DNA from: a virus
DNA: 43,015 nucleotides
Strand: one strand, 5' to 3'
Virus record (IMG/VR): IMGVR_UViG_3300047550_005713
Location: 1-43,015 of that record
Shown here: positions 15,631-34,675 of the stretch, piece after piece
How the letters are laid out: the number at the start of each line of letters is the position of its first letter
Numbering within the stretch: position 1 is the first letter of the stretch
Translations under genes and position numbers: made by a program
Notes under the pieces: model-generated
Told to the model about the DNA's origin: nothing
Seen by the model: only the letters and a program-made list of their open reading frames with translations
The model's database searches: none

Positions 15631-16623
15631 TTATTTTTCGTTAAAATCGTATATCAATTCGTGAACTCTGTCTTGTGGCAATCCATTAAATCTCTCATAA
15701 AATCTAACTAACAAATCTCTATTTGATTCTATGAATTCTTTTCTAGTATTGGCATTTTTAAATCGTTCTTCCCCTAACGCAAATCTGCAACGGAAATAAC
15801 TATTTTCTGGATGGTACGCATGAGCTATTACGTAGAGTCCATTTATACACATGTCTTCTATTGATAATCCGTAGCGTATCTTCATCATCTGCGCTACCAA
15901 TCCAAATAACCACTCATCGGTCATCGTCCAGAATCCTTGAAGTAGATCATGAGATTGTATTTCGTAACAGTGTTTTATCATGTCATCCCACATGTAAAAG
16001 AATTCCATGAGCATCTCTGTGTCTTGAAACCAAAATCCTCTAGCCCATCCATCTAAAAGCGTATACGGATTGGGTACAGATTTCATGGTTTCTTTATCGT
16101 ATCCTCTTTTTTCAAATACGTCTCCGTAAGATTCGTACATTCTATTAATATCCGTGTGATGCTGCATCAGGGGTCCGAATATAACATTTCTATCACCGAA
16201 TTTCTCTATCATCCTATCGACTCCATTTTCAAATTCTCCCCTGAAATTGATCAAACAATCAGTGTTACATAGTATGAATTTTGTAATGTTATTTTTTGCT
16301 AACCACGGAAGTATGAATCTGTGATTGTGATCTGGAAATATGTTGCCTTTGGACACCTCGGATAGCAACTTTTCTACATACACTTCATGATCCGCGTCCG
16401 TTATATACGCTGTTTTCCAACTAGCGTTTTTAGCAAAATCGTCCATTAAATCCAATGAATTTAGAACGATCAAATTGAAATCAGTCTTTACATCCTTCAG
16501 TAACTCTGGTGTGGGTGTCATAACCACGACATTATACTCTTTAGGAATATACTTAAAACTGGTTTCCATGGTTTTGATGAACTGGTAACCCACCGGGTGG
16601 AATACAATGTAAAAATCTTTCAT
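15631..16623 (-). CDS. Putative glycosyltransferase (GT-A-like), family unassigned
   Basis: This 330-residue protein begins with a Rossmann-like beta-alpha pattern (FYIVFHPVGYQFIKTMETSF, then NVVVMTP and FNLIVLNS). It has a candidate acidic nucleotide-sugar site at residues 116-124 (KFILCNTDCL). Later segments include GWARGFWFQDTEMLMEFFYM and WTMTDEWLFGLVAQMMKIRY. The pattern of one strand ending in N-T-D followed by a later 'D-E-W' acidic site is compatible with a GT-A fold, but I do not recognise the family. The gene sits two bases from the carbamoyltransferase gene and five bases from the HtrL/YibB-GT2 gene, so a role in the same pathway is likely. The functional call is mostly contextual. 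Confidence 0.45.
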   Translation of the reverse strand: MKDFYIVFHPVGYQFIKTMETSFKYIPKEYNVVVMTPTPELLKDVKTDFNLIVLNSLDLMDDFAKNASWKTAYITDADHEVYVEKLLSEVSKGNIFPDHNHRFILPWLAKNNITKFILCNTDCLINFRGEFENGVDRMIEKFGDRNVIFGPLMQHHTDINRMYESYGDVFEKRGYDKETMKSVPNPYTLLDGWARGFWFQDTEMLMEFFYMWDDMIKHCYEIQSHDLLQGFWTMTDEWLFGLVAQMMKIRYGLSIEDMCINGLYVIAHAYHPENSYFRCRFALGEERFKNANTRKEFIESNRDLLVRFYERFNGLPQDRVHELIYDFNEK

Positions 16624-16624
16624 T

Positions 16625-18244
16625 TTATCCTTTTTTAATGTAGTAATCTTCTATGACTAACGCGTCCAATTTTGTGGCTTCTAGTATGATGAAAGCATCT
16701 TTAACAGTCGAGAGTATAGGCTTTCCATCGACGTTAAATGAAGTATTTAATAACACTCCCACGCCCGTCAATTTTTCGAAAGCCGTTAATAAATCATAAA
16801 TCCAAGGGTTTTGATCTCTTGTTACTGTTTGAACTCGAGCTGTTCCGTCTATATGAGTTATTGCGGGAAGTGCTTCTTTCCACTCTTTTCTGACCTTAGG
16901 GCAGAAACTCATCCATCTGGACTCTTTATCCCATTCAAAATACTTGTTAACGTCTTCTAACCTCACTATCGGAGCAAAGGGTCTATACCACTCCCTGTGT
17001 TTCACTTTTTCATTCAAAACCTCCTTCATATCTGGTATCATGGGATTGCACAGTATGCTTCTGTTTCCTAAAGCTCTTGGACCGTGTTCTGACCTTCCTC
17101 TTGCTACGCCGACAATTTTTCCTAATTCTATATCAGCGGCCAGTTTTTCTATATTTACTTTTCTTGTCTTCGTAGGTATTCCTACGCCCTGTACGTGAGA
17201 AGCTAAGTTATCCAAATCTAGCAATTGAGTTCCTGAATATGTAGCATCATATGGTTTATTTGGCTTAAGATAATTAAGCATCATGCCCAATGCTATTCCG
17301 CAATCATTAGGATCTGGGCCCACATGCACATCGCGAAGAAAGTCCTCAATAAGTCTAGTATTAAGTATGATGTTCAATCCACAACCTCCCGTTATGCACA
17401 CTGGGAGATTTGGATATTTTTCTAGGTAAGGCTTTGCTATTTCTAAAAAGCTCTCTTCGAACGCAAGCTGATTAGTAGCAGCTAAATTATATGCTAATTC
17501 TCCCTCAATTCTATTAGACACGTCAAACGTAACCCCTATATTTTCTCCAAGGACTTTTATTTTTTCTTGATAGTCTTTTCCTTCGGGATTGTCTTTATAA
17601 AAGTTCATGAAGTGAGGTAACCAAGTACTTATTGGTGTTCCATAAGAAGCGAGTCCCATAAGTTTTCCTGGGTACACTAGATTTCCTAAACCGAGGTCTT
17701 CGTGTTTTATGTCCTTAAGATAGTGAGCTATGACCATGTACGGGAATCCCAAATCATAGTGAATGTGGGGATTATTGTATTTAGGATTTATAACAGCCTC
17801 TAACAATTTTGGAGATTCTCCTCTTTTACACGTGTATACACAGAACTTACCATCGTTTCCTCCTCCGTCGAAAGAAAATATCAATGCTTCATCATAAGAA
17901 GATTGATAAAAAGATCCGGCAGCGTGAGATAAGTGATGTTTGCTCTCTATATAATTTTTTGCGGGTATAGCCTTTTGTAAATTAAATCTCACATTGTCCA
18001 TTATCACGTCTGAATTGGAGTAGAAACAGTTTTCAAATTCTGTTATTCCCAACTTCTTCATAATCCATTGCGGGATGTATTCAGCAAAGAATAGAATTTC
18101 TGATGTTTTTGGACACATGTATTGCGCGATTCCCGCGTTTTTATAATTTAAGAAGCGCTCTGCTTCCAATACAAGCTTTATTTCTCCTTCAGATTCTACT
18201 ACGTAAGCAGCGTTGTGTGATCCGTAAAATGCGATGTTTGCCAT
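16625..18244 (-). CDS. NodU/CmcH-type O-carbamoyltransferase
   Basis: This 539-residue protein is a full-length member of the carbamoyltransferase family (PF02543 plus PF16861), which moves a carbamoyl group from carbamoyl phosphate, through carbamoyl-AMP, to a hydroxyl of a sugar, antibiotic or nucleoside. Visible motifs in order are GSHNAA (8-13), HHLSHA (103-108), FSFDGGGND (123-131), GKLMGLASYG (193-202), TGGCGLN (285-291) and, in the YrdC-like C-terminal domain, GRSEHGPRALGNRSI (383-397) and WYRPFAP (419-425). The C-terminus has LNTSFNVDGKPI. No key motif seems missing, so activity is expected. It sits inside a run of glycosyltransferase genes, one base from its neighbour. The acceptor is probably a sugar made by that run; a modified DNA base is the main alternative. 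Confidence 0.93.
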   Translation of the reverse strand: MANIAFYGSHNAAYVVESEGEIKLVLEAERFLNYKNAGIAQYMCPKTSEILFFAEYIPQWIMKKLGITEFENCFYSNSDVIMDNVRFNLQKAIPAKNYIESKHHLSHAAGSFYQSSYDEALIFSFDGGGNDGKFCVYTCKRGESPKLLEAVINPKYNNPHIHYDLGFPYMVIAHYLKDIKHEDLGLGNLVYPGKLMGLASYGTPISTWLPHFMNFYKDNPEGKDYQEKIKVLGENIGVTFDVSNRIEGELAYNLAATNQLAFEESFLEIAKPYLEKYPNLPVCITGGCGLNIILNTRLIEDFLRDVHVGPDPNDCGIALGMMLNYLKPNKPYDATYSGTQLLDLDNLASHVQGVGIPTKTRKVNIEKLAADIELGKIVGVARGRSEHGPRALGNRSILCNPMIPDMKEVLNEKVKHREWYRPFAPIVRLEDVNKYFEWDKESRWMSFCPKVRKEWKEALPAITHIDGTARVQTVTRDQNPWIYDLLTAFEKLTGVGVLLNTSFNVDGKPILSTVKDAFIILEATKLDALVIEDYYIKKG

Positions 18245-18245
18245 A

Positions 18246-19181
18246 TTAAATTTCTAGTAAGTTTAAAACGTGTTTTAATCTTGTTTTTGGGTGTAAGTAT
18301 GTATCGTAGTATTCTCTTGCATTTTTCGATATGAAATTCAAAAATTCTTTGTCTTCTTTGACCTGCATAAATCTCTCTATGTACTTTTCCGTGTATTTCA
18401 ATCCTCCCAGTCTTTCTTTTTTGATTATATCATCAAGTTGAAGTTTGGGATCCATATCGAATCTATCTATGCTTATGTAGTGGTGATTAGGAATTAGTTT
18501 AGGATTCATCTGAGTTATGTATTCGAACTTCATCATGGGCAATCCTATTCCCATGTATTCTACATCTCTAAAACAAACCTCTCCAACCCCTGGAATGGAG
18601 ACACCAACCTTGTAGTTTATGGCTTCATTGAGGTATATGATGTTGTCTGTTCCTTCGGGACCTACGTAATTCGGATGAACTTTTAAAAGTTTAGCAGAAG
18701 TTCTTTGCGCGCCTATATAATTTCCTCTGAAAATGAATTTATCTTCGTATTCTTTTTTCTGTAGTCGCTTTGCATACAACTCGTCTATGTTTATTTTAGA
18801 GTCTGCTGGAACATATATAGAATTTTTGAGTTTGAACTTCCAATCATTTTTTTCGTAGTCACGCAATTGAGTACTTGGTATTTGAGTGTATACTATCAGA
18901 TCGTTCTCATTATTTCTACGAATTATTCTAGACGGGATGTAAGATTCTAAATCAGCGAAACTTATGAGTTTATAAGAATCATTGCCTTCTTCGTATATTA
19001 AAAGTTCGCAATCGAGTAGAGGTGCATCTTCAGAATCTATTTGACACAACAGATCTCCATTATCGCTGAATTTCTCGTCTCTAATCCACTTTGCTCCTAA
19101 GTTTTCTTGCAAATACGAAGCTAATTCAGACAATAGCGCGTTGTAGCTATTTTTATGGTTATTTACATAGTAAACTATCAT
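18246..19181 (-). CDS. GT-B-like glycosyltransferase, GT90/CAP10-like C-terminal half
   Basis: This 311-residue protein starts at ATG 19181 with an ATGA overlap of the preceding gene. The C-terminal half carries FIFRGNYIGAQRTSAKLLKV, then GVGEVCFRDVEYMGIGLPMM, then LIPNHHYISI and finally YIERFMQVKEDKEFLNFISK-NAREYY. The order 'FRG', 'G.gEvc.Rd.Ey...G.p.m', 'P..hYi.i', terminal helix with 'is.NAr.yy' is like the nucleotide-sugar half of GT90/CAP10 and related GT-B enzymes. The same terminal helix occurs in the 317-residue protein at 20155-21108, so the two are diverged relatives. The N-terminal 110 residues are not recognised. Donor and acceptor are unknown. Confidence 0.6.
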   Translation of the reverse strand: MIVYYVNNHKNSYNALLSELASYLQENLGAKWIRDEKFSDNGDLLCQIDSEDAPLLDCELLIYEEGNDSYKLISFADLESYIPSRIIRRNNENDLIVYTQIPSTQLRDYEKNDWKFKLKNSIYVPADSKINIDELYAKRLQKKEYEDKFIFRGNYIGAQRTSAKLLKVHPNYVGPEGTDNIIYLNEAINYKVGVSIPGVGEVCFRDVEYMGIGLPMMKFEYITQMNPKLIPNHHYISIDRFDMDPKLQLDDIIKKERLGGLKYTEKYIERFMQVKEDKEFLNFISKNAREYYDTYLHPKTRLKHVLNLLEI

Positions 19182-20158
19182 ACGTTGCTCTCTAAATAAT
19201 CTATAAATTCTTGAGGTAATTTCTCGTAATTATTTTCTATGTACTTAAGTATTTTTCTACGTCTATTTGTGATTCTATAATTCTCAAAATGTGGAATTCT
19301 TTTTCTATCGAATCCCAAAGAAAAACAATTTGTATCATCTTGTATTAAATTTCCTAAAGTGGGAGGACACCAAAAGAAATATCGATGAAATATGTCGATT
19401 CCTATGTCATCGTAGTATTTCACATGAAGGTATCTCAATAAAATTTGATCATCTTGACATCCATGTGGAAATCCCATGTGATAATCGTCTTGCATTAAAC
19501 TAATTACTTCTTTCATTAAATTCAATACATAGTCTTTTTCTCCTATGAAAACTCCCGCATTCAATGCCGCATGAGCGGGATGAGGATGAGGACCAAATCT
19601 CTCTTCACTCAATTTCATGTATTTCGGAATGCAATCATCTGATACGGGTGAGAAATATGCGGGCATATCCTCAGGAGGATGAGCTCCCGTGTGGCTAAAA
19701 TTGCCTTCGTGGTTAAATAGTATTTTGCATTGGTAGTAATCCAACATTTCTTTTGGATTCTCAAGATCCTTTATCAAAAGCGTATCAAACGCATCAGCGT
19801 ATAAAATGTAATTGGGCAAAGAATCATAATTCTGTTCTATGTATTGTACTATTCCTTGAGGTTTACTTATCCATCTTATGTATTCTGGACAGGTTATGAA
19901 CTCTATGGGCCGACTGTCGACTAGTTGTTTGGATGTATACTCGTGTAAGGGATTTGCGTATCTGCCTTTTTCATCAATTACTGTGATAACTTGAACGTCA
20001 TTCGATATTCTTATCTCTTTTTCTAATATGGGAATTTCAAGACTGCACTGATGTACCGTAGTTCCAACTATAAACCTTCCGTGTATAACATTAAAATCAT
20101 AAAGCTGCTCACAGAGCACCTTTCTAACTTTTTGTTGTTTAGGCGTTAACGTATTCAT
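19178..20158 (-). CDS. PLOD/procollagen-type glycosyltransferase
   Basis: I place the start at ATG 20158-20156, which gives 326 residues (MNTLTPKQQK) and an ATGA overlap with the preceding gene; the frame extends 20 codons further upstream but that segment overlaps the previous gene and looks non-coding. Motifs resemble the GT-A glycosyltransferase domain of lysyl hydroxylase/glycosyltransferase (PLOD) proteins and related procollagen galactosyl/glucosyltransferases: NYILYADAFDTLLIKD (116-131, the D-x-x-D metal site), CKILFNHEGN (144-153, matching 'vvFsaE'), AALNAGVFIGEKDYV (197-211, matching 'LNSG.fiG'), and QDDQILLRYL (235-244, matching 'DDQ'). Such enzymes put Gal or Glc on hydroxylysine in animal and giant-virus collagen. 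Here no collagen-like Gly-X-Y protein or hydroxylase is present, so the acceptor is probably different. Confidence 0.68.
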   Translation of the reverse strand: MNTLTPKQQKVRKVLCEQLYDFNVIHGRFIVGTTVHQCSLEIPILEKEIRISNDVQVITVIDEKGRYANPLHEYTSKQLVDSRPIEFITCPEYIRWISKPQGIVQYIEQNYDSLPNYILYADAFDTLLIKDLENPKEMLDYYQCKILFNHEGNFSHTGAHPPEDMPAYFSPVSDDCIPKYMKLSEERFGPHPHPAHAALNAGVFIGEKDYVLNLMKEVISLMQDDYHMGFPHGCQDDQILLRYLHVKYYDDIGIDIFHRYFFWCPPTLGNLIQDDTNCFSLGFDRKRIPHFENYRITNRRRKILKYIENNYEKLPQEFIDYLESNV

Positions 20159-21108
20159 CTCAATAAGTCTAAATTTATGGTGTTTTTGAATATATTTAAA
20201 TGCGCTTCCACTGTACAATTTTCTAGATAGTATTTTCTTGCATTTTCAGAGATGAACATCATAAAATCCCTGTCTTTTTTTACTTCTTCGTATCGATCTA
20301 TATATGCATCCATGAGTTTAGGATAATCGTGCGTCCAATCGCATTTTACCTCTGCATAATGATAATCAGGTATCATAGGAGAATACATTTTCATTTTTAT
20401 GGGAGGTCTAACCAGGACAGTTCCCAATCCCATTGCAACAGCTGTTCTATCAGAAACGCCCGCTACACAATTCAAATCTATATTTATAGCCGATTGGTTC
20501 ATCTCTTCAACGAATTTTGTTTCGCTCAATCTTTCACAATAAACATCAAATCTATTATCGTAAATCCACACCCACCGTCTTAAACCGTAAGAGCATGATC
20601 TATAATAGGGCTTTTTTAATACGGGTCTTTCACTATTGGACCTATAGCAATTTTCTATAGCCGTGTAAGTCTCTATCATGTAAGGGGCTCTTACTATAGG
20701 AAGATAATCGATTGTGTTTATTTCATTGTATGTAGTATCATCAGATTGAGTTCCTGCGTTAGTGAAAAATTGAACACAATAGTCGAAATCAGGAAAGTGG
20801 GAAACCCAAGATATAGATCTATCCCAATTAGAAACTAGTATGTACTTATTATTATCTGGGTTCTCTATGAAAAATGATTGGTAAGTTGCTCCATCGTATA
20901 TAAACTTTACTTTATGTTTATCTTCAGCATTTATTGGTATGAGACCTGGGCTTCTGGGGACTTTTGTTTCGTCTAAATAAGGTTCGAACTTGAAATTTAT
21001 ATCAGGATATTTTTCCGCATAATACTGTAACAATCGGTGGGGTATCATGTTTGTTACACACGATTCCACTCTATGTACGTTATTATCGTATCTAAAGTTT
21101 AGTGTCAT
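20155..21108 (-). CDS. GT-B-like glycosyltransferase, relative of the 311-residue protein
   Basis: This 317-residue protein starts with an ATGA overlap at 21108. Its C-terminal third contains INIDLNCVAGVSDRTAVAMG, then LGTVLVRPP, PMIPDYHYAEV, and a terminal helix with YIDRYEEVKKDRDFMMFISE-NARKYY. This end matches the layout of the 311-residue protein at 18246-19181 ('P..HY', then 'YI.R...vk.D..F..FIS.NAR.YY'), so I read both as the nucleotide-sugar-binding half of the same GT-B-like family. The N-terminal part (CVTNMIPHRLLQYYAEKYPD) is not recognised and lacks the 'FRG...' stretch of its relative, although the Tyr/Arg-rich region near residues 165-185 (YYRSCSYGLRRWVWIYDNRF) could serve. Function inferred from similarity within the window and from the operon. 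Confidence 0.55.
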   Translation of the reverse strand: MTLNFRYDNNVHRVESCVTNMIPHRLLQYYAEKYPDINFKFEPYLDETKVPRSPGLIPINAEDKHKVKFIYDGATYQSFFIENPDNNKYILVSNWDRSISWVSHFPDFDYCVQFFTNAGTQSDDTTYNEINTIDYLPIVRAPYMIETYTAIENCYRSNSERPVLKKPYYRSCSYGLRRWVWIYDNRFDVYCERLSETKFVEEMNQSAINIDLNCVAGVSDRTAVAMGLGTVLVRPPIKMKMYSPMIPDYHYAEVKCDWTHDYPKLMDAYIDRYEEVKKDRDFMMFISENARKYYLENCTVEAHLNIFKNTINLDLLR

Positions 21109-22376
21109 TGAGGAATAGGATGTTCGTATCTTTCACACCAACCTTTTGTTTTGTGATGTGCCCAATATACAACTCTAGCCGGTTTTTTATCAGCTAAGAA
21201 GTATTCTTCGTAGTGAATGTTTCTTCCTTGATTAAACGAGGTTAATCTATAATCATCTATGAATTTGCTGTTTATGGATTTACCGTCTTTATCATCGAAA
21301 GCAACTAACACAAACGAGTATTCTTCCTCTTTAAACATCGATCTTTGAACATCTACTAAATAGTAGAAAGATTCCATCATAGATTGTTGCCACAATTCTT
21401 CGTCTTCGATCTTAGGATTAGGAGGATAGCCGTTTTCTAGTGTATATTTTTGAACAGCTCTGCGTTTAAAATCTACTCCTGCGTATTTTTCGTAATCTTT
21501 AAGGGTTCTCTCTTTTCCTAGATCGTATCCTGTAAGATCTATGCCTGTATCGACTCTAAATAAACAACGTATTTTTTTTCTTGCATACTCTTGTTTATTA
21601 TACCAGTCCACTCCCAATCTAGCATCATCGTCCCATTTCAATTTTCCAGCGCGTTCTTCTCTCATTGTAGAATGCCAAACTACGATCTTGTGCGGATGGA
21701 AGAAATCGTAACCGTGAGTGTAAGATCTCACAGTGAGATTGATCTCTTCACCGCTGAAATAAATATCTGGATCGTGCTTGATCTCTCTTGCCCATTCGCT
21801 TCTTGCGAAATCGAAGTGTCCACAGAGGAACCTAGACATCGGTGGTTCTGTCATGTTTTGGTAACCGTGCAGTAAACCCGGACGGATGAATATAGTGCCG
21901 TGAGGATAGAAACATACGAACTGAGATTGCCACGGTTCCATGGATCTTCCTGCTGGATCGTTGAACGGATCGTACAACGGAGAATAACCTGCGATGATGG
22001 GTTTTTTGTAACCCTTCTTCTCAAGGTCGTTGTGCATCGTTATCAGAGTCTCGTCCCAATCTTGAGCGAATCTGTGATGAGAGTCCAATTGACAAACGTA
22101 GTCTTCATCGTCAAGTAGCTTCTCATTGATGATGGATCTCGCCCAGGGAAGTCCTTTTGCTTCCGTATATAGACACTCATAGATCTTAAATCGTTTGTCC
22201 GATTTGTATTCTGTCAGATCGTCGAACTTATCGTCGGGATGATACTGACGACATATTCCAAAATGAATTCTTTTTGGGTATTTTGCTTTGTCTAAAGCAT
22301 CTTTGATTGTTGGAATAAGTTCAGGATCCCTATAAGAAGGGAGATGTAACAATATCGTCTCTAATTTCTTACTCAT
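21105..22376 (-). CDS. GT60/PF11397-like polypeptide GlcNAc-transferase, copy 2
   Basis: This 423-residue protein is a second copy of the neighbouring enzyme. Shared landmarks are HLPSYRDPELIPTIKDAL (11-28), QLDSHHRF (96-103, with D-S-H as the presumed metal site), IYFSGEEINL (205-214) and RSYTHGYDFFHPHKIVVWH (217-235). They are arranged as in PF11397 glycosyltransferases, whose characterised eukaryotic members add alpha-GlcNAc to hydroxyproline of Skp1 or to Thr of trypanosome mucins (GT60). The C-terminal 100 residues are a separate small domain with 'VDVQRSMFKEEEYSFVLVAF', also present in copy 1. The gene overlaps copy 1 by eight bases, supporting co-translation. Local G+C is clearly higher around 21700-22200 than at its 3' end. 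Substrate unproven. Confidence 0.8.
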   Translation of the reverse strand: MSKKLETILLHLPSYRDPELIPTIKDALDKAKYPKRIHFGICRQYHPDDKFDDLTEYKSDKRFKIYECLYTEAKGLPWARSIINEKLLDDEDYVCQLDSHHRFAQDWDETLITMHNDLEKKGYKKPIIAGYSPLYDPFNDPAGRSMEPWQSQFVCFYPHGTIFIRPGLLHGYQNMTEPPMSRFLCGHFDFARSEWAREIKHDPDIYFSGEEINLTVRSYTHGYDFFHPHKIVVWHSTMREERAGKLKWDDDARLGVDWYNKQEYARKKIRCLFRVDTGIDLTGYDLGKERTLKDYEKYAGVDFKRRAVQKYTLENGYPPNPKIEDEELWQQSMMESFYYLVDVQRSMFKEEEYSFVLVAFDDKDGKSINSKFIDDYRLTSFNQGRNIHYEEYFLADKKPARVVYWAHHKTKGWCERYEHPIPQ

Positions 22377-23625
22377 ATTTTATAACGTTTTCTATTCTAT
22401 CCATCCAACCTTTTGATTCGCTGTGGGGCCAAACTCTCCAACTGTAGGGAAGTTCCGTGCTTTCATACTCTCTCCAAATGTGTATGAATTGATCTTTCAT
22501 ATCTGAATTCATAAAGCCATGTATCTCGTTCTTATCAGCGTCTTGTCGATGTACATCTTTTCCGTCTTTATCTAATAACGCGATAACAAAGGCATCATAA
22601 TCTTTTTCTAATAAAGATCCGCGATAAATATCCATGCACACTTTGATCTTACTCTTCAATCCAGATTCATAATCTCCAGATATGGGTGCTGGTCTATGCT
22701 GTAAAGTCTCTTCGTGTATTTGCCTAGTTTTAAATTTCAACCCAGCGTAGCGTTCGTAATCCTCTAAAGTTCTCTCATTTCCAAAATAGAATTCTCCAAA
22801 ACTTTTTATCATGCATGGAGTACATTCTCCTTCCATTCCAAAAAGCTTTCTGAAACGCGCATAGGAATTTTTATCAAGATCGTTATAAGTATTATGATCG
22901 TCCCAATGTTTCTTTTTTCCTTCCCTGGTGTATTCGTGCCAAACGTATATTCTGTGCGGATTAAATATGTCGTATCCATGAGTATAAGCTCTCGCGGCTA
23001 ATGAAGTTTCTTCACCGTGAAAATACAAATTAGGATCGTAAGGAACTTCCTTAGCAAACTGTCCAAGTGTAAATATGAAATGAGCAGATAAGAATCTGGA
23101 TCTCACGGGTTCCTTCATGTCTCTCCAACCATCCAATCCCTGAGGTCTTAGAAATACTGCGCCTTCAGGTAAAAATCTATCTATGTTTAAAAACCAAACT
23201 TCTTGAGTTCTGTCTGCAGGATCTTTTTCAGGGAAGTAAGAGGGCAGATAAGTCGAAAGTATGGGTTTTTTGTAGCATTGGGTTTGCAGATAAGCTATCA
23301 TGTCCTTCAATTTAGAATCCCAACCTTGCACAAATCTGTGGTGGGAATCCAATTGCATATAGTACTCTTCGTCCTTATACAGCGATCCTATTTTATTCCT
23401 AGCCCAACAAACACCTCTAGATTCTTTGTGATCCATGTCCAGTATCCTGAACCTTTTATCTTTTTTGAATTCGTCTAGATTGTCCCACTCGTCCTCTTTG
23501 GCGTGTTGCCAACATATACCAAACACCAAATTATCGGGTTGATCTGCCGTTGAGATGCAGTCTTTTAGCGTAGGAAGTAATTCGGGATCTCTATACGATG
23601 CTATCGAAACAAATATCTTTGCCAT
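22369..23625 (-). CDS. GT60/PF11397-like polypeptide GlcNAc-transferase, copy 1
   Basis: This 418-residue GT-A-type enzyme is first in the sugar-enzyme operon. Motifs are FVSIASYRDPELLPTLKDC (5-23), RGVCWARNKIG (70-80), MQLDSHHRF (90-98, D-S-H as the likely metal/nucleotide site), LYFHGEETSL (200-209) and RAYTHGYDIFNPHRIYVWH (212-230). 'SyRDpel.pTl.d', 'iDSH.rF', 'f.GEE' and 'R.yThGyD.f.P' are the signature order of PF11397. Characterised members of this family (CAZy GT60) modify Thr or hydroxyproline of proteins with GlcNAc. A C-terminal region from about 325 (VCMDIYRGSLLEKDYDAFVI) is shared with copy 2. The promoter-like element lies 28 bases upstream (23654-23664). Lying directly downstream of the mucin-like fibre gene makes that protein a natural candidate substrate. 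Confidence 0.82.
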   Translation of the reverse strand: MAKIFVSIASYRDPELLPTLKDCISTADQPDNLVFGICWQHAKEDEWDNLDEFKKDKRFRILDMDHKESRGVCWARNKIGSLYKDEEYYMQLDSHHRFVQGWDSKLKDMIAYLQTQCYKKPILSTYLPSYFPEKDPADRTQEVWFLNIDRFLPEGAVFLRPQGLDGWRDMKEPVRSRFLSAHFIFTLGQFAKEVPYDPNLYFHGEETSLAARAYTHGYDIFNPHRIYVWHEYTREGKKKHWDDHNTYNDLDKNSYARFRKLFGMEGECTPCMIKSFGEFYFGNERTLEDYERYAGLKFKTRQIHEETLQHRPAPISGDYESGLKSKIKVCMDIYRGSLLEKDYDAFVIALLDKDGKDVHRQDADKNEIHGFMNSDMKDQFIHIWREYESTELPYSWRVWPHSESKGWMDRIENVIKYE

Positions 23626-23653
23626 AAACTAGTTTTGTCGAAACGATCATTTA

Positions 23654-23664
23654 CTATAAATATA
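23654..23664 (-). promoter_or_regulatory. Promoter-like element upstream of the sugar-enzyme operon
   Basis: Sense-strand TATATTTATAG with the shared core ATATTTAT, 28 bases upstream of the first GT60-like gene, in the 95-base gap after the mucin-like gene. It is the only copy of the element in a gap before 13779, so all eight enzymes probably share one transcript. Confidence 0.55.
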
Positions 23665-23720
23665 CACTTTTTTGGTCGTGATAATAATTATTGTTTACAG
23701 TGAAGCTTATTTTTGTGCAT

Positions 23721-26700
23721 TTATATACAAGTTGTAGAATTATTACCCATAGTAACCGTAACATCTGCTCCATAAGCAATAGTGCTAGCGTTGTCAGTAA
23801 CCTTTAAACGCCAAACAGCTGACGTAGTATTACCTGTAGTAATGGCACAATCGAATGTAACACCGTTAACTGTAAAGTTTGTAGTAGCCGATGTACTCGC
23901 TGTCGGTTGTATAGTACTATCTCCACTAACTAATTCCCACAAATATGTGTAAGGACTGGTTCCTCCAGTTGCCGTGCCTGTGACAGAAACGGTGTTAGCA
24001 GGAACACACGTTGTTGTGCTCGTACAGAATCTAGAGACGGATGTATTATTCATAGATACACTCAAAGGAGCCGACACGGACGTAGAAGGAGTCAGACTTA
24101 TGGTTCTTGTTACGGTTATCGTAGGAGTGACGGTAATCGTTGGTGTAAGGCTTATTGTACTTGTTACGGTTATCGTAGGAGTCAGACTTATAGTTTTTGT
24201 TACAGTTATCGTAGGAGTGACGCTAATTGTGGGAGTAGCTGTTACACTTATTGTCCTAGTGGGAGTTTGACTTATTGTTGAAGTTACACTAATGGTCTGA
24301 GTCAGACTTATTGTTCTTGTTACGGTTATCGTAGGCGTTACAGTTATCGTTGGAGTCAGACTTATGGTTTTTGTTACTGTTATCGTAGGCGTTACAGTTA
24401 TTGTAGGTGTTACGCTTATAGTGGCAGTGTTAGTTATGCTTATGGTAGGAGTTACAGTTATAGTAGGAGTTACAGTTATAGTAGGAGTTATACTAATGGT
24501 AGGAGTCAAGCTTATTGTAGGGGTCTGACTTATTGTGGATGTAACGGTTATTGTAGGCGTTACAGTTATTGTAGGAGTCAAACTCTTTGTAGGAGTCAAG
24601 CTTATTGTAGGAGTCACACTTATAGTCGCAGTGTTAGTTATACTAATAGTTGGAGTGACAGTAATTGTAGGCGTTACGCTTATGGTAGGAGTCTGACTTA
24701 TTGTGGCTGTTACGCTGATCGTAGAAGTGACAGTGATTGTAGGCGTTACAGTTATCGTAGGTGTTACAGTAATTGTGGGAGTTAAACTTATAGTCGCTGT
24801 TTGACTTATCGTAGACGTAACACTAATAGTTGGAGTGTTGGTTATGCTAATTGTCGGAGTTACACTTATAGTAGGAGTCAAACTATTTGTAGGAGTCAAG
24901 CTTATGGTAGCAGTCTGACTTATTGTGGATGTGACGCTTATGGTAGGAGTCACGGTTATCGTAGGAGTCACACTAATGGTCGCAGTTCTACTTGGCGTAA
25001 CGCTTATAGTAGGAGTAACTGTGATAGTGGGAGTCAAACTAATAGTGGGAGTTAAGCTTATTGTAGGAGTCAAACTGATGGTAACGGTAACTGTTATGGT
25101 GGGAGTTACACTTATGCTCGATGTAACACTGATTGTAGGAGTAACTGTTATCGTAGGAGTTAAGCTTATAGTTGCAGTTCTGCTTGGTGTAACACTGATG
25201 GTTGGAGTCACTGTTATCGTAGGAGTTAAGCTAATGGTCGAAGTGATGCTTATGGTCGGAGTTACGCTAATGGTCGAGGTGACGCTTATGGTCGGAGTTA
25301 CGCTTATGGTATTAGTCGGAGTTACGCTTATTGTAGGTGTATTAGTTACGGTAATAGTTGGAGTTACACTTATTGTTGATGTAACACTTATTGTAGGCGT
25401 TAAGCTTATTGTCGGGGTTACACTTATTGTAGGTGTATTAGTTACCGTAATTGTCGGGGTTACACTAATTGTGCGAGTTACTGTTATTGTTGGAGTTACA
25501 CTGATCGTGGGAGTAACGCTAATCGTAGGAGTAACAGTAATCGTAGGTGTAACGCTTATCGTTGCCGTAGCAGTTTGACTTATAGTTGCGGTGACAGATA
25601 TCGTCCTCGTAGTTGTTACAGTAGGAGTTACGCTTATAGTTGGAGTTCTTGATATTGTAGCTGTTGTGCTGATAGATGGCGTTACTGTAGGCGTAGGAGG
25701 GGGTACGACTTTCAAATTCAATGCCACAAATGCTATATCATCGCTAGCAGCAGTGTATCCTATTGTAAAGTTAGATGTAGAGGAGGACGTTTGTCTATCT
25801 ACGCGCACCACTTCTTGTCCAAGGTCTGAGCTTTGAACGGTTGACATGCCAGATAGAGGTGCCAAGTCAGTGACGTTAGGTAATCCTGAGAACACTCCGC
25901 AGAACGCTAAGCAGTCATCTCCGCCTGTCGTTAGAGCTGCTTGTGGGTTAGCCCGATCTTCAGACAATGAAGCACTTGATTGCACTACAACATCAAAATT
26001 GTTAGTCGTATACACTGTAGTGGCTACAAACCAATAATCGTCGGTAGTGGCTGTACTAAAATCTACAGTTACAGATTGAGTACCTGTGGGAATCCCAGAT
26101 CCCAAAAACCAAACAGTTGTAAATGCTGGTTCTGTTGCAGTATCCCTAGCACCAGTAACAAAGGTCATGGATTGTCCACCGTAAGTGACTCCGACTATGT
26201 TATCAGTTGCATTCGTGTAGTTGATGGCGAATAGTAATACTCCATTGGGATTCGTTACTGGGGTGTGGTTAAATGAGAATGGGTCTGTGGTAGCTGTTCT
26301 AGTAGACTGCGTTGATGCATCAAATACGACTTGCGCAGTCGGAGGAGTAGTAGAGGGAGTAGTACTAATTGTAGCGGTTTGACTTATAGTAGGTGTGGCG
26401 GTTACGCTGATCGTAGGAGTTACGCTTATAGTCGGCGTTACGCTTATAGTCGGAGTTACGCTTATCGTAGGTGTAAATGTTATAGTTGGAGTTTCGCTTA
26501 TGGTAGGAGTTGGTGTGAGACTGACGGTTGCTGTTTCACTTATAGTCGGTGTTACCGATATTGTAGCAGTTTGGCTTATACTTGGAGTCTGGCTTATTGT
26601 GGAGGTAACCGTTATGGTCGGAGTTACACTTATTGTCGGTGTTGATGTAATGCTAATAGTAGGAGTTACGCTAATCGTCGAAGTAACGCTGATCGTAGGA

Positions 26701-28994
26701 GTTACGGTAATAGTAGGAGTCTGACTTATTGTTGGCGTTGATGTAACGCTGATAGTGGGAGTGACGCTAATTGTTGCAGTAACGCTGATCGTAGGAGTTA
26801 CACTAATAGTAGCGGTGTTAGTTACACTTATAGTAGGAGTTACGCTGATTGTCGATGTGACACTTATTGTTGGCGTAACGCTTATGGTAGGGGTTTGACT
26901 TATTGTAGCCGTTCTAGTAACACTGATAGTGGGTGTTACAGTAATTGTTGGAGTTTGACTTACAGTGGAAGTAACGCTTATGGTAGGAGTCTGACTTATC
27001 GTTGCAGTGTTTGTTATACTGATTGTAGGAGTAACACTAATTGTCGAGGTAACACTGATTGTGGGGGTAACACTAATCGTAGGAGTAACGCTAATAGTGG
27101 CAGTTGTAGTAACACTTATTGTAGGAGTAATGCTGATTGTAGGTGTTTGACTTATAGTAGAAGTTACACTAATGGTAGGAGTTACGCTTATAGTGGCAGT
27201 TCTAGTAACGCTTATGGTAGGAGTTGCGCTAATTGTGGGTGTTTGACTTATAGTAGAAGTGACACTTACGGTAGGAGTCTGACTTATTGTGGAGGTGTTC
27301 GTTATGCTAATTGTGGGAGTTACGCTTATTGTAAAGGTTACGCTAATCGTAGGAGTGACACTGATCGTGGGAGTTACGCTTATAGTGGCGGTTCTAGTCA
27401 GACTGATTGTCGGTGTAACACTTATTGTAGGAGTGACGCTGATTGTCGAAGTTACACTTATAGTTGGCGTTACACTTATTGTAGGAGTAGCAGTTTGACT
27501 TATAGTTGAGGTTACACTAATCGTAGGAGTCTGGCTTATCGTAGTGGTTACACTTATAGTAGCTGTAACACTAATGGTCGGAGTAGAGGTTACACTAGTG
27601 GTAGGAGTCACACTGATTGTCGAAGTTACGCTTATAGTAGGAGTGACGGTAATTGTTGGAGTCTGACTTATTGTGGCAGTTGCCGTTATACTGATTGTGG
27701 GAGTTGTACTGATTGTAGAAGTTACACTTATAGTTGGCGTAACACTTATTGTAGAAGTAACGCTTATTGTAGGAGTTGAAGTTTGACTTATAGTCGGAGT
27801 TACACTTATCGTAGAAGTTTGACTTACAGTAGGAGTTACACTTATTGTAGAAGTAACGCTTATGGTAGGAGTAGAAGTTACACTAATAGTTGGAGTCTGA
27901 CTTATGGTCGCGGTGACACTGATTGTAGATGTAACGGTGATGGTGGGCGTTTGACTTATTGTAGCCGTTCTAGTAACGCTTATTGTAGGAGTGACGCTGA
28001 TTGTCGAAGTTACACTAATGGTAGGCGTCTGACTTATAGTTGCAGTGACACTAGTGGTGGGAGTAACTGTAATTGTAGGAGTTGCTGTCAAGCTTATCGT
28101 TGGTGTAACGCTTATAGTTGCAGTGACACTAATGGTAGGAGTCCGACTTACGGTTGAAGTTACGCTGATTGTGGGAGTTACGCTTATTGTCGGAGTGGAT
28201 GTGATGCTTATAGTAGGAGTAATGCTTTGAGTTGGAGTTTGAGTAAGTCCAGGCGAACTTGTATTGCTTGGTGTAATGCTAATTGTGGGCGTAACGCTTA
28301 TTGTCGAAGTCACACTAATCGTAGGAGTCGCTGTAACGCTTATTGTAGCAGTTCTAGTTATACTGATAGTCGGAGTTTGACTTATTGTGGATGTAACAGT
28401 TATAGTTGGTGTTAAACTTATAGTCGCCGTTAAACTTGTCGTTTTAGTTACGGTGATAGTGGGAGTAAGGCTAATAGTCGAAGTTACGCTTATAGTCTTA
28501 GTTACAGTGATAGTAGGAGTAACGCTGATTGTCGGGGTCGCCGTTACACTTATGGTAGGAGTTGCTGTGACGCTTATTGTAGAAGTAACTGTGATAGTGG
28601 GCGTTACGCTGATTGTAGGAGTAGCTGTTACGCTTATTGTAGCTGTCTTTGTTATGCTTATCGTTGGAGTGACACTAATAGTGGATGTAACACTGATAGT
28701 AGGCGTAACGGTTATTGTAGGAGTAGATGTAAGACCAATAGTGGGAGTTCTACTTATAGTAACAGATACTGTTGGAGTCGGCGTAGGAGAGTTATTGGGT
28801 GTGTAATTGTACCATTCGCTGAAATAGTGGGGCGCAGTTTGGTTTAAACTACCGCTCTGTCCTCCCAACCAAAATAAGGATCCCTCTATGGGAACCAATC
28901 CACCCGCCAATAACGATACTGGAGCGTTGGGTATCCTACCCAGCTCCGTATTCATCATACTCATCGATATTGGACCTGAAGCGGGTATAGGCAT
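23721..28994 (-). CDS. Mucin-like giant fibre protein with Thr-Pro-Thr-Ile-Ser-Val repeats
   Basis: This 1757-residue protein has four parts. Residues 1-70 (PIPASGPISMSMMNTELGR, ending HYFSEWYNYTPNN) look like a phage tail-protein anchoring N-terminus. Residues about 70-880 and 1100-1640 are low-complexity tracts built from six-residue units T-x-T-I-S-V (x = P, S or A), sometimes lengthened to eight (TATPTISV), with almost no acidic residues and only scattered Arg/Lys. Residues about 885-1095 form an ordinary globular domain (QVVFDAS at its start, later GVTYGGQSM and GGDDCLAFCGVF). Residues about 1640-1757 are a PKD/Ig-like domain (SPYTYLWELVSGD, then WRLKVTDNAS) with four Cys. The Thr/Pro/Ser content is like mucin stalks that carry O-glycans. 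It lies two bases after the S74-domain gene and directly before two GT60-like genes. It is most likely a virion fibre or surface appendage. Confidence 0.75.
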   Translation of the reverse strand: MPIPASGPISMSMMNTELGRIPNAPVSLLAGGLVPIEGSLFWLGGQSGSLNQTAPHYFSEWYNYTPNNSPTPTPTVSVTISRTPTIGLTSTPTITVTPTISVTSTISVTPTISITKTATISVTATPTISVTPTITVTSTISVTATPTISVTATPTISVTPTITVTKTISVTSTISLTPTITVTKTTSLTATISLTPTITVTSTISQTPTISITRTATISVTATPTISVTSTISVTPTISITPSNTSSPGLTQTPTQSITPTISITSTPTISVTPTISVTSTVSRTPTISVTATISVTPTISLTATPTITVTPTTSVTATISQTPTISVTSTISVTPTISVTRTATISQTPTITVTSTISVTATISQTPTISVTSTPTISVTSTISVTPTVSQTSTISVTPTISQTSTPTISVTSTISVTPTISVTSTISTTPTISITATATISQTPTITVTPTISVTSTISVTPTTSVTSTPTISVTATISVTTTISQTPTISVTSTISQTATPTISVTPTISVTSTISVTPTISVTPTISLTRTATISVTPTISVTPTISVTFTISVTPTISITNTSTISQTPTVSVTSTISQTPTISATPTISVTRTATISVTPTISVTSTISQTPTISITPTISVTTTATISVTPTISVTPTISVTSTISVTPTISITNTATISQTPTISVTSTVSQTPTITVTPTISVTRTATISQTPTISVTPTISVTSTISVTPTISVTNTATISVTPTISVTATISVTPTISVTSTPTISQTPTITVTPTISVTSTISVTPTISITSTPTISVTPTITVTSTISQTPSISQTATISVTPTISETATVSLTPTPTISETPTITFTPTISVTPTISVTPTISVTPTISVTATPTISQTATISTTPSTTPPTAQVVFDASTQSTRTATTDPFSFNHTPVTNPNGVLLFAINYTNATDNIVGVTYGGQSMTFVTGARDTATEPAFTTVWFLGSGIPTGTQSVTVDFSTATTDDYWFVATTVYTTNNFDVVVQSSASLSEDRANPQAALTTGGDDCLAFCGVFSGLPNVTDLAPLSGMSTVQSSDLGQEVVRVDRQTSSSTSNFTIGYTAASDDIAFVALNLKVVPPPTPTVTPSISTTATISRTPTISVTPTVTTTRTISVTATISQTATATISVTPTITVTPTISVTPTISVTPTITVTRTISVTPTITVTNTPTISVTPTISLTPTISVTSTISVTPTITVTNTPTISVTPTNTISVTPTISVTSTISVTPTISITSTISLTPTITVTPTISVTPSRTATISLTPTITVTPTISVTSSISVTPTITVTVTISLTPTISLTPTISLTPTITVTPTISVTPSRTATISVTPTITVTPTISVTSTISQTATISLTPTNSLTPTISVTPTISITNTPTISVTSTISQTATISLTPTITVTPTITVTPTITVTSTISVTATISQTPTISVTPTITVTPTISITNTATISVTPTISLTPTKSLTPTITVTPTITVTSTISQTPTISLTPTISITPTITVTPTITVTPTISITNTATISVTPTITVTPTITVTKTISLTPTITVTPTITVTRTISLTQTISVTSTISQTPTRTISVTATPTISVTPTITVTKTISLTPTITVTSTISLTPTITVTPTITVTRTISLTPSTSVSAPLSVSMNNTSVSRFCTSTTTCVPANTVSVTGTATGGTSPYTYLWELVSGDSTIQPTASTSATTNFTVNGVTFDCAITTGNTTSAVWRLKVTDNASTIAYGADVTVTMGNNSTTCI
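24085..25705 (-). repeat. Second hexad repeat tract in the mucin-like gene
   Basis: Roughly 90 tandem 18-base units coding for T-x-T-I/K-S/T-V/L hexads, richer in TITVTPTISL-type variants than the first tract. Third codon positions vary strongly between copies while the encoded hexad stays recognisable. Confidence 0.85.
26340..28790 (-). repeat. First hexad repeat tract in the mucin-like gene
   Basis: Roughly 130 tandem 18-base units (with some 24-base units) coding for TPTISV, TSTISV, TATISV and relatives such as TATPTISV, SQTPTI and TRTATI. Synonymous codons are mixed from copy to copy. The pattern also creates long spurious frames on the plus strand. Confidence 0.88.
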
Positions 28995-28996
28995 GA

Positions 28997-29446
28997 TTAC
29001 TTCCCTTTCTTCAGTTCGTCTATCTCTTTCTTAAGGTCTTTTATCGCTTCTATTAGTAGTGCTACTATCTTATCGTACTTTACGGCTTTGTAACCGCTGT
29101 TCCTAGTCCTTACTAATTCTGGGACGACCTCCTCGATCTCTTGAGCTATCACTCCGACATCGTGACCCTGGTACCCGTGATTCACCGGATCGGGTATCCA
29201 ATCGAATTCAACACCGTTTATTTTTTGCACCTTTTCAAGCGCATTCTCTATGGGAGTTATGTTCGTTTTGAATCTTTTATCAGAGCTATTGAAAGCCACT
29301 ATATCGTTCGATGCGTCCAATCTGCCTATCGTGGCAGATGGTTGTATGTCCCCTATAGAAAGAGAGGAACTAACAGATAGGGATCCCGTTATTACGGAAT
29401 TGCTTCTTGCTATTATGCCATTCCTGGCTATGAATTCGTTTGCCAT
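28997..29446 (-). CDS. Short tail-fibre protein with S74 self-cleaving chaperone domain
   Basis: This 149-residue protein has a fibre-like beginning (MANEFIARNGIIARSNSVIT, then GSLSVSSSLS) and, from about residue 50, a complete peptidase S74/intramolecular chaperone domain (PF13884). SSDKRFKTNI holds the Ser55 and Lys60 pair in the five-residue spacing of the endosialidase chaperone (Ser911/Lys916). It is followed by ALEKVQKINGVEFDW, DVGVIAQEIEEVVPELV, GYKAVKYDKIVALLIEAIKD and a Lys-rich coiled coil. S74 domains trimerise the fibre and then cut themselves off. Here almost no fibre precedes the domain, so it may act on itself as a very short fibre or help neighbours fold in trans. It sits between the Gly-rich and mucin-like genes. 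Confidence 0.85.
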   Translation of the reverse strand: MANEFIARNGIIARSNSVITGSLSVSSSLSIGDIQPSATIGRLDASNDIVAFNSSDKRFKTNITPIENALEKVQKINGVEFDWIPDPVNHGYQGHDVGVIAQEIEEVVPELVRTRNSGYKAVKYDKIVALLIEAIKDLKKEIDELKKGK

Positions 29447-30261: not shown

Positions 30262-33200
30262 TTACCTCTTTATAAAGTCTACCTGTACAGAAACCTGTTG
30301 CTGAAGAGCGCCTGAGATTATGACCTCTAGCCCATCTCCTGCGGAATAAGTGGTGTTTTGAACAGTTCCACCCGAAGTCCAAATGTTGTTGTTGCTAACT
30401 GTCAAGTTAGTAGCTAAGTGTAGGGAAGCGCCGGAACCGCTTCGTCTTGCGTTTATTTGTGGGTTCGTACTACCGGATTTGAAAGCCCATATACCGACGA
30501 CTGTTGCGGGGAATGGTGCTCTCCACACGTGGTAAGATCCTGTTACGGTGAAAGTATTCGTTAGATCTGCTATCGTACAGCCTTTAGAGAACACTCCGTA
30601 ACCTCCGGAACCCGATACTATCAACGATCCGGTTATGGAAGCATCGCCGATGATGACCAGTTCCCTTTCAGAAGAAACTCCTGAACTTGTGATCATGAAG
30701 GATCCTGTGTACCTCGTGTTCCCTACGCCTCTAAGAATGTCTGTATTGCCAAAAGACGCAGATGCATAGATACTTCCAGTGATTTCCACCGTTCCTATCG
30801 CATCTATAACTGGTTTATTAAGCGATGAACCTGTAAAATAAAAAGTTCCTGATAAAGCCGCGTTACCCTTAACTTCTAAATCTATGTCGTGGGATCCGGA
30901 TATAAATAGAGTACCGCTGATCATAGCGTTTCCGTTCACGTCCAATGTGGCGTTCAATGAGGAAGACTTCTGTATACCGACTCTACTACCTGAAATAGTA
31001 ACGTCTGGTGTTCCTGTTGAGTTAGCGAATAAGTGTAGGGATTGGGAAGTCAACGAGGGTTGATAATAACCAGTGGAATTTCCTACGAATAGATCTCCTC
31101 CGGTGTTAAATACGTAAGCGTCGTTAGGTTTTCCAAAAGTATAGTTCGGATCAATTCCCGATCCGTTTATACCCATGTCTACGTAGTATTGGTTCTTATT
31201 TCCTTGATCGTTGTAAGCCGTAAAATCGGAAGACGCACTTATTCCTGTATTTGTATTTTGTACAAAAATTTCTACGTAAGTATTCGTGTTTCCTATCACC
31301 TCTATGCCTAAAGATCCGGAAGCTTGACTTCTGAACGATCCTGTCAAACCTAAACTTCCAGTTATCTGAGCTGATCCTGTGTAAGGGAATGACGCTGCGG
31401 TTGAAGCATTGAGAGCGTATGACGCCGTTATGGCGTGAGAAGAGGTGGTGGCGAAAGAGGAAGATCCAAGTAAACTACCAGTGATGCTAGAAGCGGATAC
31501 GAAGGACGCCGTAACTGAAATTACATTGAAACCATCGTTTCCTGATATCGATCCCGTCACTATCAAAGATCCTGATACGGATGAGGATCCTGTGACGTCC
31601 AAACTTCCTGTAATTCTTGCAGAGCCGCTGTAAGGGAAAGCAGCTCCAGCGCCTCCCGGTATATTTATAGTGGCAACTCCTCCTCCCGCATTTGTTGCTG
31701 TGACACCCTCACCAGTAAAGTTCAACGTTCCTACAGAGAACGCTGTTCCTCCTTCGTCTTGCACATTCACGTTAGAAGATCCTCCGATTACGTAACTCGC
31801 TGTTACGGCGTGGGAAGATGTTACCGAGTAAGAAGACGTGGTAGAGTATGAAGCACTTACAGAATACGATGAACTTATAGAATAAGAAGAAGTTGTGGAA
31901 TAAGAAGAGCTAACGGAATAAGACGATGTGGTAGCATAGGACGCTGAGGTTGGTTGTCCATTTACCCAGTTTCCTGAGCTATATATTAATGCCTCTCCGT
32001 TTACTGCTCCAGTTATAACTACATCTCCCAAATCGTTAAGATTTGTCACGGTTGCGCCTCCTCCTCCTGAAGAACCTGCGGTATTTCTAAACAAGCCTGC
32101 GTTTATTATTCTACTTGTATTTGTATCTTGTAGACTTGTCGCTGTACCTTCCATTATCACGTAACCTATGAAAGGAAGCGTGACTATAGATGTTTGAGAT
32201 TCAGAAAAGTCTTCAGTAGTTACACTGTTTAGCGCATTAGTTAGACTCGTATATTTATTCTGCCCGTAATAAACGTAAGTGACGCTGTTTACTACGCCTT
32301 GAAAAATTCTTTGTATAGTAAACTCTCCTGATCCTACGCTTTGTAGAGTTCCGCTTCCATCATCGTATTTTGTAGGATCCAAACCTCTAAAGGGCGCGCC
32401 TCCAGCTCCAACTGAAGCTTTGTATCCTCCTACCACAGCGGGATCTCTATATACACGCACAAAACTAGCTGTTGGAATAGCAGTAGAATCGTAAGTAGAA
32501 GGCGTTTCTGGATTTTGTGAATAGAACCCTCCGAATCTGTATGATTTTCCTGCCGCTATACTAGCGCTAAGGCTATTTTCTATAGGTGTTATATTGAATC
32601 CATTTACTTTCAATGGACCGAAAGCTCTCACAAATTCCGCAGACTGTTGAGTTTGACCATACGCGGTCACTCTAAGATCTCCGTAAGACGCTATGCTCTT
32701 TGTTGTTAAACTGAATATGGCGCCTAGAGGAAAGACCTCGTGGTATTGAGCGGTCGCGAAAGTAGTAGTTTGATATTGTAATTGACCAACAGAGTCTATG
32801 TAGAGATAGTGTATTTGAGATCCCGTTACTTGATCTTTAAAAGATTGCGTTATGGGTCCGAAATTAACTGTTGTAGGAACCGTTTCTCCCTTTGCGTTAG
32901 TAGCAGCGTTGTGATTTATCAATAAACCAACTCCAGGAGTTATTCTTACTTCTGTAGCGTTAGGTGGATCGTCCATTCCTGCGCTACCAGTGAAAGTTAC
33001 TATGCCTCCGTATATTATTCCAGTATCTACCGCTTGTTGTATCCAGTCTTGATTCCACAGATTTCCTGAATTCCTATAATATAAGTCTTTTTGTCCTGAA
33101 TACTGAGACGCTGATGTAAAGAAGTACGTTACATCTGCTTTGCTCCCGGCTAAATCAGGATCTGTAGTAGCGTGGAGAACTAGAGATCCGCTCAGCGATA

Positions 33201-34674: not shown

Positions 34675-34675
34675 A

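Follow-up and report, generated by a model that had tools for sequence, protein, structure and literature searches.

The 43-kb virus record IMGVR_UViG_3300047550_005713 (positions 1 to 43,015, the whole of which is referred to below as the window) contains a gene for a long Thr/Ser/Pro-rich repeat protein, followed by two genes for glycosyltransferases of Pfam family PF11397, or glycosyltransferase family 60 (GT60). Judged by its genes, the record is a T4-like myovirus: its major capsid protein has 56% identity to that of Flavobacterium phage immuto and 48% to that of a Microcystis phage, and matches to PHROGs include major head, head-tail adaptor, tail sheath, tail tube and baseplate hub proteins. 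Every likely gene is on the minus strand. Together with six further genes, the repeat gene and the two PF11397 genes form a cluster between the fibre/S74 genes and the tail sheath gene (Table 1). This cluster is larger than the region of interest in a first-pass annotation of the same DNA (21105-28994) and reaches down to 13797. The T4 late promoter consensus TATAAATA was found in 11 copies versus 4.3 expected, at positions that do not decide co-transcription.

The first-pass annotation had described a nearly uncharged, Thr-rich protein of 1757 residues, which corresponds to the repeat open reading frame (ORF). Its product consists of 32.6% Thr, 15.1% Ser and 9.6% Pro and has 60 charged residues in all; the repeat part (1432 residues) has 36% Thr, 16% Ser, 11% Pro and 29 charged residues. 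The protein therefore possesses the long, low-charge, repeated region, dominated by Thr and Ser and containing Pro, by which mucin-type proteins are recognized. The repeats are organized in two blocks (residues 58-916 and 1090-1662) flanking a folded-looking insert, there is a short N-terminal module, and the C-terminal domain appears Ig/PKD-like, a reading of the sequence and not a database match. The number of T-x-T-I-S-V hexads, given as over 200 in the annotation, was too high: 92 copies are exact, T-x-T-I-[ST]-x occurs 190 times (mean 11.8, maximum 23 in the shuffled protein), and the loosest form, [ST]-x-T-[IV]-[ST]-x, has 198 non-overlapping copies. All four codons of both Thr and Pro are used in the repeats, and Ser, Ile and Val codons also vary freely from one repeat to another. 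Thus, the repeats look kept as protein and not recently duplicated as DNA, which suggests selection at the protein level.

The N-terminal module weakly resembles the N-termini of tail fibres (E 0.04-0.6). The N-terminus is 91% identical in a close relative (L006) that has a longer repeat protein (2184 residues) and the same S74 and Gly-rich neighbours as the window. ORFs of 80-217 residues opposite the repeats were set aside as antisense images of them, and a match of the repeats to PHROG 15511 looks compositional. In a 183-kb close relative (contig IMGVR_UViG_3300033571_022897), four extra mucin-like ORFs are located in a row (L264:1-6108), distant from the GT60 pair; parts of its main repeat gene lie at both contig ends, so that the contig is either circular or broken at the repeat.

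The first glycosyltransferase gene (GT60A) starts 95 nucleotides downstream of the repeat gene and overlaps the second (GT60B) by 8 nucleotides, and the pair is found side by side in many relatives. As the annotation had stated, both belong to PF11397 (244 bits for GT60A and 168 bits for GT60B, curated cut-off 21 bits) and both contain the motifs SYRDPEL, DSHHRF, GEE and YTHGYD. The two proteins are 40% identical and have the invariant motifs in common, and a D-[SA]-H motif was kept in 17/17 aligned relatives. As read from the sequence, neither has an obvious signal or membrane segment, and they appear to be soluble cytosolic proteins. Sequence searches against PDB yielded no similarity at E<=1. 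A structure of GT60A was predicted with AF2 from 17 relatives (predicted local distance difference test 81.3, predicted TM-score 0.75); in a Foldseek search, PDB ranks 1-23 were all polypeptide N-acetylgalactosamine (GalNAc)-transferases (best E 1.9e-9, modest TM ~0.45). The predicted structure has a GT-A fold with a DxH/DxD metal motif and kinship to polypeptide N-acetylhexosamine (HexNAc)-transferases. Previous studies, in agreement with the annotation, described GT60 members as polypeptide alpha-N-acetylglucosamine (GlcNAc)-transferases, which initiate mucin-type glycosylation in T. cruzi and Dictyostelium and also glycosylate Skp1 hydroxyproline (PMC8724618, PMC6939170). The suggestion that the phage enzymes are initiating transferases is in line with the nearest structural matches of GT60A; the glycosylated virion appendage and the mucin-like coat that were proposed with it are hypothetical.

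A scan for PF11397 relatives detected at least 587 viral loci, 80 of which were kept, and in many of them the ORF directly upstream of GT60 was Thr/Ser/Pro-rich. Because GT60 was the basis on which these loci had been selected, this was not accepted as evidence, and we relied on reverse selection and on shuffling of gene order. For the former, records of at least 20 kb, all of them fragments, were taken from among the matches listed for the motif TPx[IV]x[IV]TPx[IV]x[IV]TP, expressed as a DNA pattern, and nearly all pattern loci that were checked had a genuine repeat ORF. PF11397 was present in 19/50 of these records, a count somewhat inflated by near-duplicates (e.g., G012 and G033), and in 0/43 controls of at least 20 kb, comprising 19 records related to the window by tail sheath and 24 selected with an arbitrary 15-mer (Fisher p 1e-6). 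With the sheath relatives alone (0/19) p was 8e-4, a value to be read loosely because GT60-bearing L122 (same contig as L024) and the closest relatives, L093 and L094, had been left out, which biases this control low. The repeat and PF11397 genes were at most 1.2 kb apart in 9 of the 19 records. Independently of these controls, gene order was shuffled within loci, which controls for phage type: a repeat ORF adjoined GT60 in 21/60 non-redundant phage loci versus 7.9 +/- 2.3 expected (maximum of 5000 shuffles, 17). On a quick 119-row GT60 tree, the adjacency label needed 10 changes (no fewer than 8 when judged by starred branches), which may be gains or losses. When repeats were masked, 41 adjacent repeat ORFs fell into ~18 groups without detectable similarity, a number inflated by truncated ORFs; it is thus the repeat composition that recurs and not one inherited protein. 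In L019 and L021, repeat genes are located both before and between two GT60 genes. The pairing of repeat gene and GT60 is a recurrent genomic association, beyond a single juxtaposition. The co-occurrence proposed as a check in the annotation was accordingly seen as enrichment and adjacency, although the link is not obligate in either direction.

The repeated co-occurrence of repeat genes and GT60 genes in many viral sequences makes it probable that the phage glycosylates a protein of its own, and we consider it likely that the cluster encodes a mucin-type O-glycosylation system acting on the repeat protein. The enzyme family and predicted fold, the genomic coupling to Thr/Pro-repeat genes and the constancy of a third protein (HtrL+GT2, below) are supported by the data. 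Several observations, however, weigh against this interpretation. PF11397 was absent from 31 of the 50 repeat-bearing records, ~39/60 phage GT60 loci had no adjacent repeat gene, and immuto, the nearest isolate, has a 546-residue Thr/Ser-rich repeat ORF near its capsid gene (annotated as hypothetical) and no GT60; the repeats thus do not need GT60. In bacteria, adjacency (4/65 loci versus 1.9 expected) was not significant, these statistics being weak because GT60 is rare in sampled genomes (strong matches in 1/395 in the class of Jiulongibacter and 3/298 in the phylum of a Gemmatimonas genome). Finally, the wall-teichoic-acid GlcNAc-transferases TarP and TarS were among the Foldseek matches of GT60A from rank 31 on, so that a non-protein acceptor is possible.

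The repeat records and immuto repeats lacking GT60 would fit an absence of any functional link: large aquatic T4-like phages are rich in transferases and low-complexity tail proteins, and co-occurrence might only reflect phage type. We consider this improbable, as GT60 was absent from the sheath relatives (with the three omissions mentioned), the adjacency test is internal to each locus, and the association changed repeatedly on the tree. In repeat-bearing phages without GT60, other transferases may serve, or the repeats may work bare. A large, unrelated glycosyltransferase-like protein, a possible alternative enzyme, is encoded beside repeat genes in two loci without PF11397 (L184:8391-11114 and L224:5235-7973).

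Among the remaining cluster proteins, HtrL+GT2 is, by homologue counts, the most constant partner of GT60. Homologues were detected in 74/88 phage GT60 loci and 12 others (including XacN1, RAS14 and bacteria), all counted within GT60 loci. Its AF2 model was weak (predicted TM-score 0.52) and matched two-domain GT-A polymerases and GT-A enzymes; sequence searches of this protein and of the unassigned cluster proteins against PDB gave nothing useful. Some homologues of ~780 residues have an extra N-terminal part (L008:15622-17940, L009:18430-20775, L010:5124-7469 and L348:12803-15145), and in this extension the homologue profile matched a sugar O-methyltransferase (PDB 3ssm, E 0.003). The extra part may be a methyltransferase, which suggests a methylated glycan. 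Carbamoyltransferase homologues were present in 24/88 phage GT60 loci; the gene is located beside GT60 in Jiulongibacter and in XacN1, whose record annotates it immediately after the GT60 gene. XacN1 and RAS14 have no repeat gene within 12 kb on each side of GT60, and no isolated phage with the cluster was found.

The HtrL_YibB family is linked to the lipopolysaccharide core locus of E. coli, and polysaccharide loci often contain carbamoyltransferases and GT2 enzymes. These features, the TarP/TarS matches and the many GT60 loci without a nearby repeat gene raise the question of whether the acceptor is a glycan of the host surface (capsule, O-antigen or lipopolysaccharide core), modified perhaps in order to prevent superinfection, with the repeat gene nearby only because tail genes are a hotspot for accessory genes. 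Yet characterized GT60 enzymes use polypeptide acceptors, the best structural matches are polypeptide transferases, and repeat genes were enriched by independent selection and adjoined GT60 more often than in shuffled order. Action on host glycans is therefore unlikely in our view, if somewhat less so than the absence of any functional link.

Table 1. Features of the cluster, its surroundings and related loci
Feature	Position	Strand	Evidence
Thr/Ser/Pro-rich mucin-like repeat protein, 1757 aa; proposed acceptor	23721-28994	-	composition, repeat count
GT60A, PF11397 glycosyltransferase, 418 aa; proposed initiating polypeptide HexNAc-transferase	22369-23625	-	Pfam E 4e-72; AF2 and Foldseek
GT60B, second PF11397 glycosyltransferase, 423 aa; GT60A paralogue	21105-22376	-	Pfam E 5e-49
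Possible extending glycosyltransferase, loose family shared with 18246-19181	20155-21108	-	homologues in 16/88 phage GT60 loci; no Pfam, PHROG or PDB match
Protein with YADAFDTLL motif, possible glycosyltransferase	19178-20218	-	homologues in L006, L023, L054; no match in Pfam or PDB
Distant relative of 20155-21108, possible glycosyltransferase	18246-19181	-	homologues in 21/88 phage GT60 loci; no Pfam match
NodU/NolO-type carbamoyltransferase, proposed glycan-capping enzyme	16625-18244	-	PF16861 E 2e-65, PF02543 E 1e-22
Protein of the same gene run	15631-16623	-	homologues in 9 loci; no Pfam match
Two-domain HtrL_YibB + GT2 protein (HtrL+GT2), proposed chain-extending enzyme	13797-15626	-	PF09612 E 1e-8, PF00535 E 8e-4
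Peptidase S74 (intramolecular chaperone) fibre C-terminus	28997-29446	-	PF13884 E 7.5e-19; PHROG tail fibre/baseplate families
Fibre genes	30262-37996	-	
Tail sheath gene	11310-13103	-	
Immuto repeat ORF	L426:28875-30515 (immuto 128874-130514)		
Bacterial Thr/Pro-rich proteins with twin-arginine-like N-terminal segment beside GT60	L348:8941-9729, L351:9155-9874, L369:10042-10521		

The product of one of the fibre genes (34676-37996, minus strand) contains ~20 tandem 22-residue Ser/Ala/Tyr units (like SVTSASYARSSSLAETASYFIT) and is another kind of low-complexity fibre in the same gene run.

Thr/Ser/Pro-rich proteins were also found beside GT60 in four bacterial loci (L348, L351, L358 and L369). 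The Jiulongibacter locus has a GT60-carbamoyltransferase-HtrL/GT2 run, next to which a 262-residue TPTPT-rich protein with a twin-arginine-like start is encoded. Similar proteins occur in L369 and in a Gemmatimonas metagenome-assembled genome (L351), and L358 has a TPTP-rich ORF without such a start. In two other Gemmatimonadota genomes, GT60 adjoins a PqqD-like/twin-arginine-like protein whose Ser/Thr/Pro/Ala part is limited to a short tail. As read from sequence, a PqqD-like part is followed by a twin-arginine-like segment in L449:8697-10045, L450:7394-7825 and L351:9155-9874, and in L449 a kinase-like ORF adjoins this protein. Twin-arginine export would fit cytosolic glycosylation preceding secretion. 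It is conceivable, and we put it forward tentatively, that GT60 and HtrL/GT2, often with the carbamoyltransferase, form a mobile prokaryotic mucin-type O-glycosylation cassette, common to phages and a few bacteria and repeatedly re-paired with unrelated Thr/Ser/Pro-repeat proteins: phage tail stalks and small twin-arginine-exported bacterial proteins. The eukaryotic GT60 pathway may stem from a source related to such a cassette.

For the phage system itself, our inferences on the acceptor and donor sugar, on the order in which the glycan is extended, on its capping, on a location in the tail and on the biological benefit are as follows. During infection, the two cytosolic GT60 enzymes would glycosylate Thr, and perhaps Ser, in the repeat protein encoded upstream, most likely using host UDP-GlcNAc to attach alpha-GlcNAc; a candidate repeat-type acceptor peptide is TPTISVTPTISV. 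HtrL+GT2 and at least one of the cluster's proteins without a family match would extend this sugar, and the NodU-type carbamoyltransferase would cap the glycan. With dense neutral glycans, the repeat of 1400 residues could stay extended and resist proteases, forming a stalk or brush on the tail, and the glycans might serve adhesion or shielding. The main acceptor might instead be another virion protein, such as the capsid or the Ser/Ala/Tyr-repeat fibres (30262-37996), with the repeat protein a mere neighbour. Further Ser/Thr-rich fibres are indeed encoded next door, and mycobacteriophage-encoded transferases glycosylate capsid and tail tube (as cited in PMC12619734). However, the recurring neighbour of GT60 is specifically Thr/Ser/Pro-rich, has unrelated modules and is also found in bacteria without phage fibres, and we give this alternative little credence.

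Mucin-type O-glycosylation with polypeptide HexNAc-transferases as its starting enzymes is regarded as peculiar to eukaryotes. Searches of the open-licence literature returned nothing relevant on PF11397/GT60 in phage, and its titles and abstracts no phage mucin-like or O-glycosylated protein system, neither of which proves novelty. GT60-type mucin O-glycosylation would be new for phages, whereas phage virion glycosylation is already known. If correct, our interpretation would offer a simple, soluble means of producing mucin-like glycoproteins, account for a class of low-complexity phage tail proteins, add a route by which phages may alter adhesion or evade recognition, and supply relatives for tracing the origin of eukaryotic GT60 enzymes.

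Among known systems, the protist GT60 enzymes (the T. cruzi enzyme, the Dictyostelium mucin-type enzyme and Skp1 Gnt1) have PF11397 in common with the phage enzymes, and protist mucins have Thr/Ser/Pro-rich acceptor domains like the acceptor proposed here. Skp1 Gnt1 is soluble and cytosolic, as the phage enzymes appear to be, and the Skp1 pathway has a two-domain GT2-containing protein (PMC8724618), with HtrL+GT2 as the likeness in the phage cluster. No Skp1-type prolyl 4-hydroxylase was detected among the ten proteins scanned by Pfam within the 43 kb of genome covered. Unlike the protist enzymes, those of the phage are encoded in a structural gene run as two side-by-side paralogues with a carbamoyltransferase. 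Animal polypeptide GalNAc-transferases (GT27) are the best structural matches of GT60A and have the DxH motif in common with it, and animal mucins present dense Thr/Ser/Pro acceptor arrays, as does the repeat protein; the phage enzymes differ in having no evident ricin-type lectin domain and no secretory pathway. The transferases of phage DNA glucosylation and serotype conversion are also phage-encoded, but their acceptors are DNA or O-antigen, and we know of no coupling of these enzymes to repeat proteins. Virion glycosylation in mycobacteriophages likewise relies on transferases that the phage encodes and that act on its structural proteins (Freeman et al. 2023, as cited in PMC12619734); the acceptors there are the C-termini of capsid and tail-tube proteins, in contrast to the long repeat stalk proposed here.

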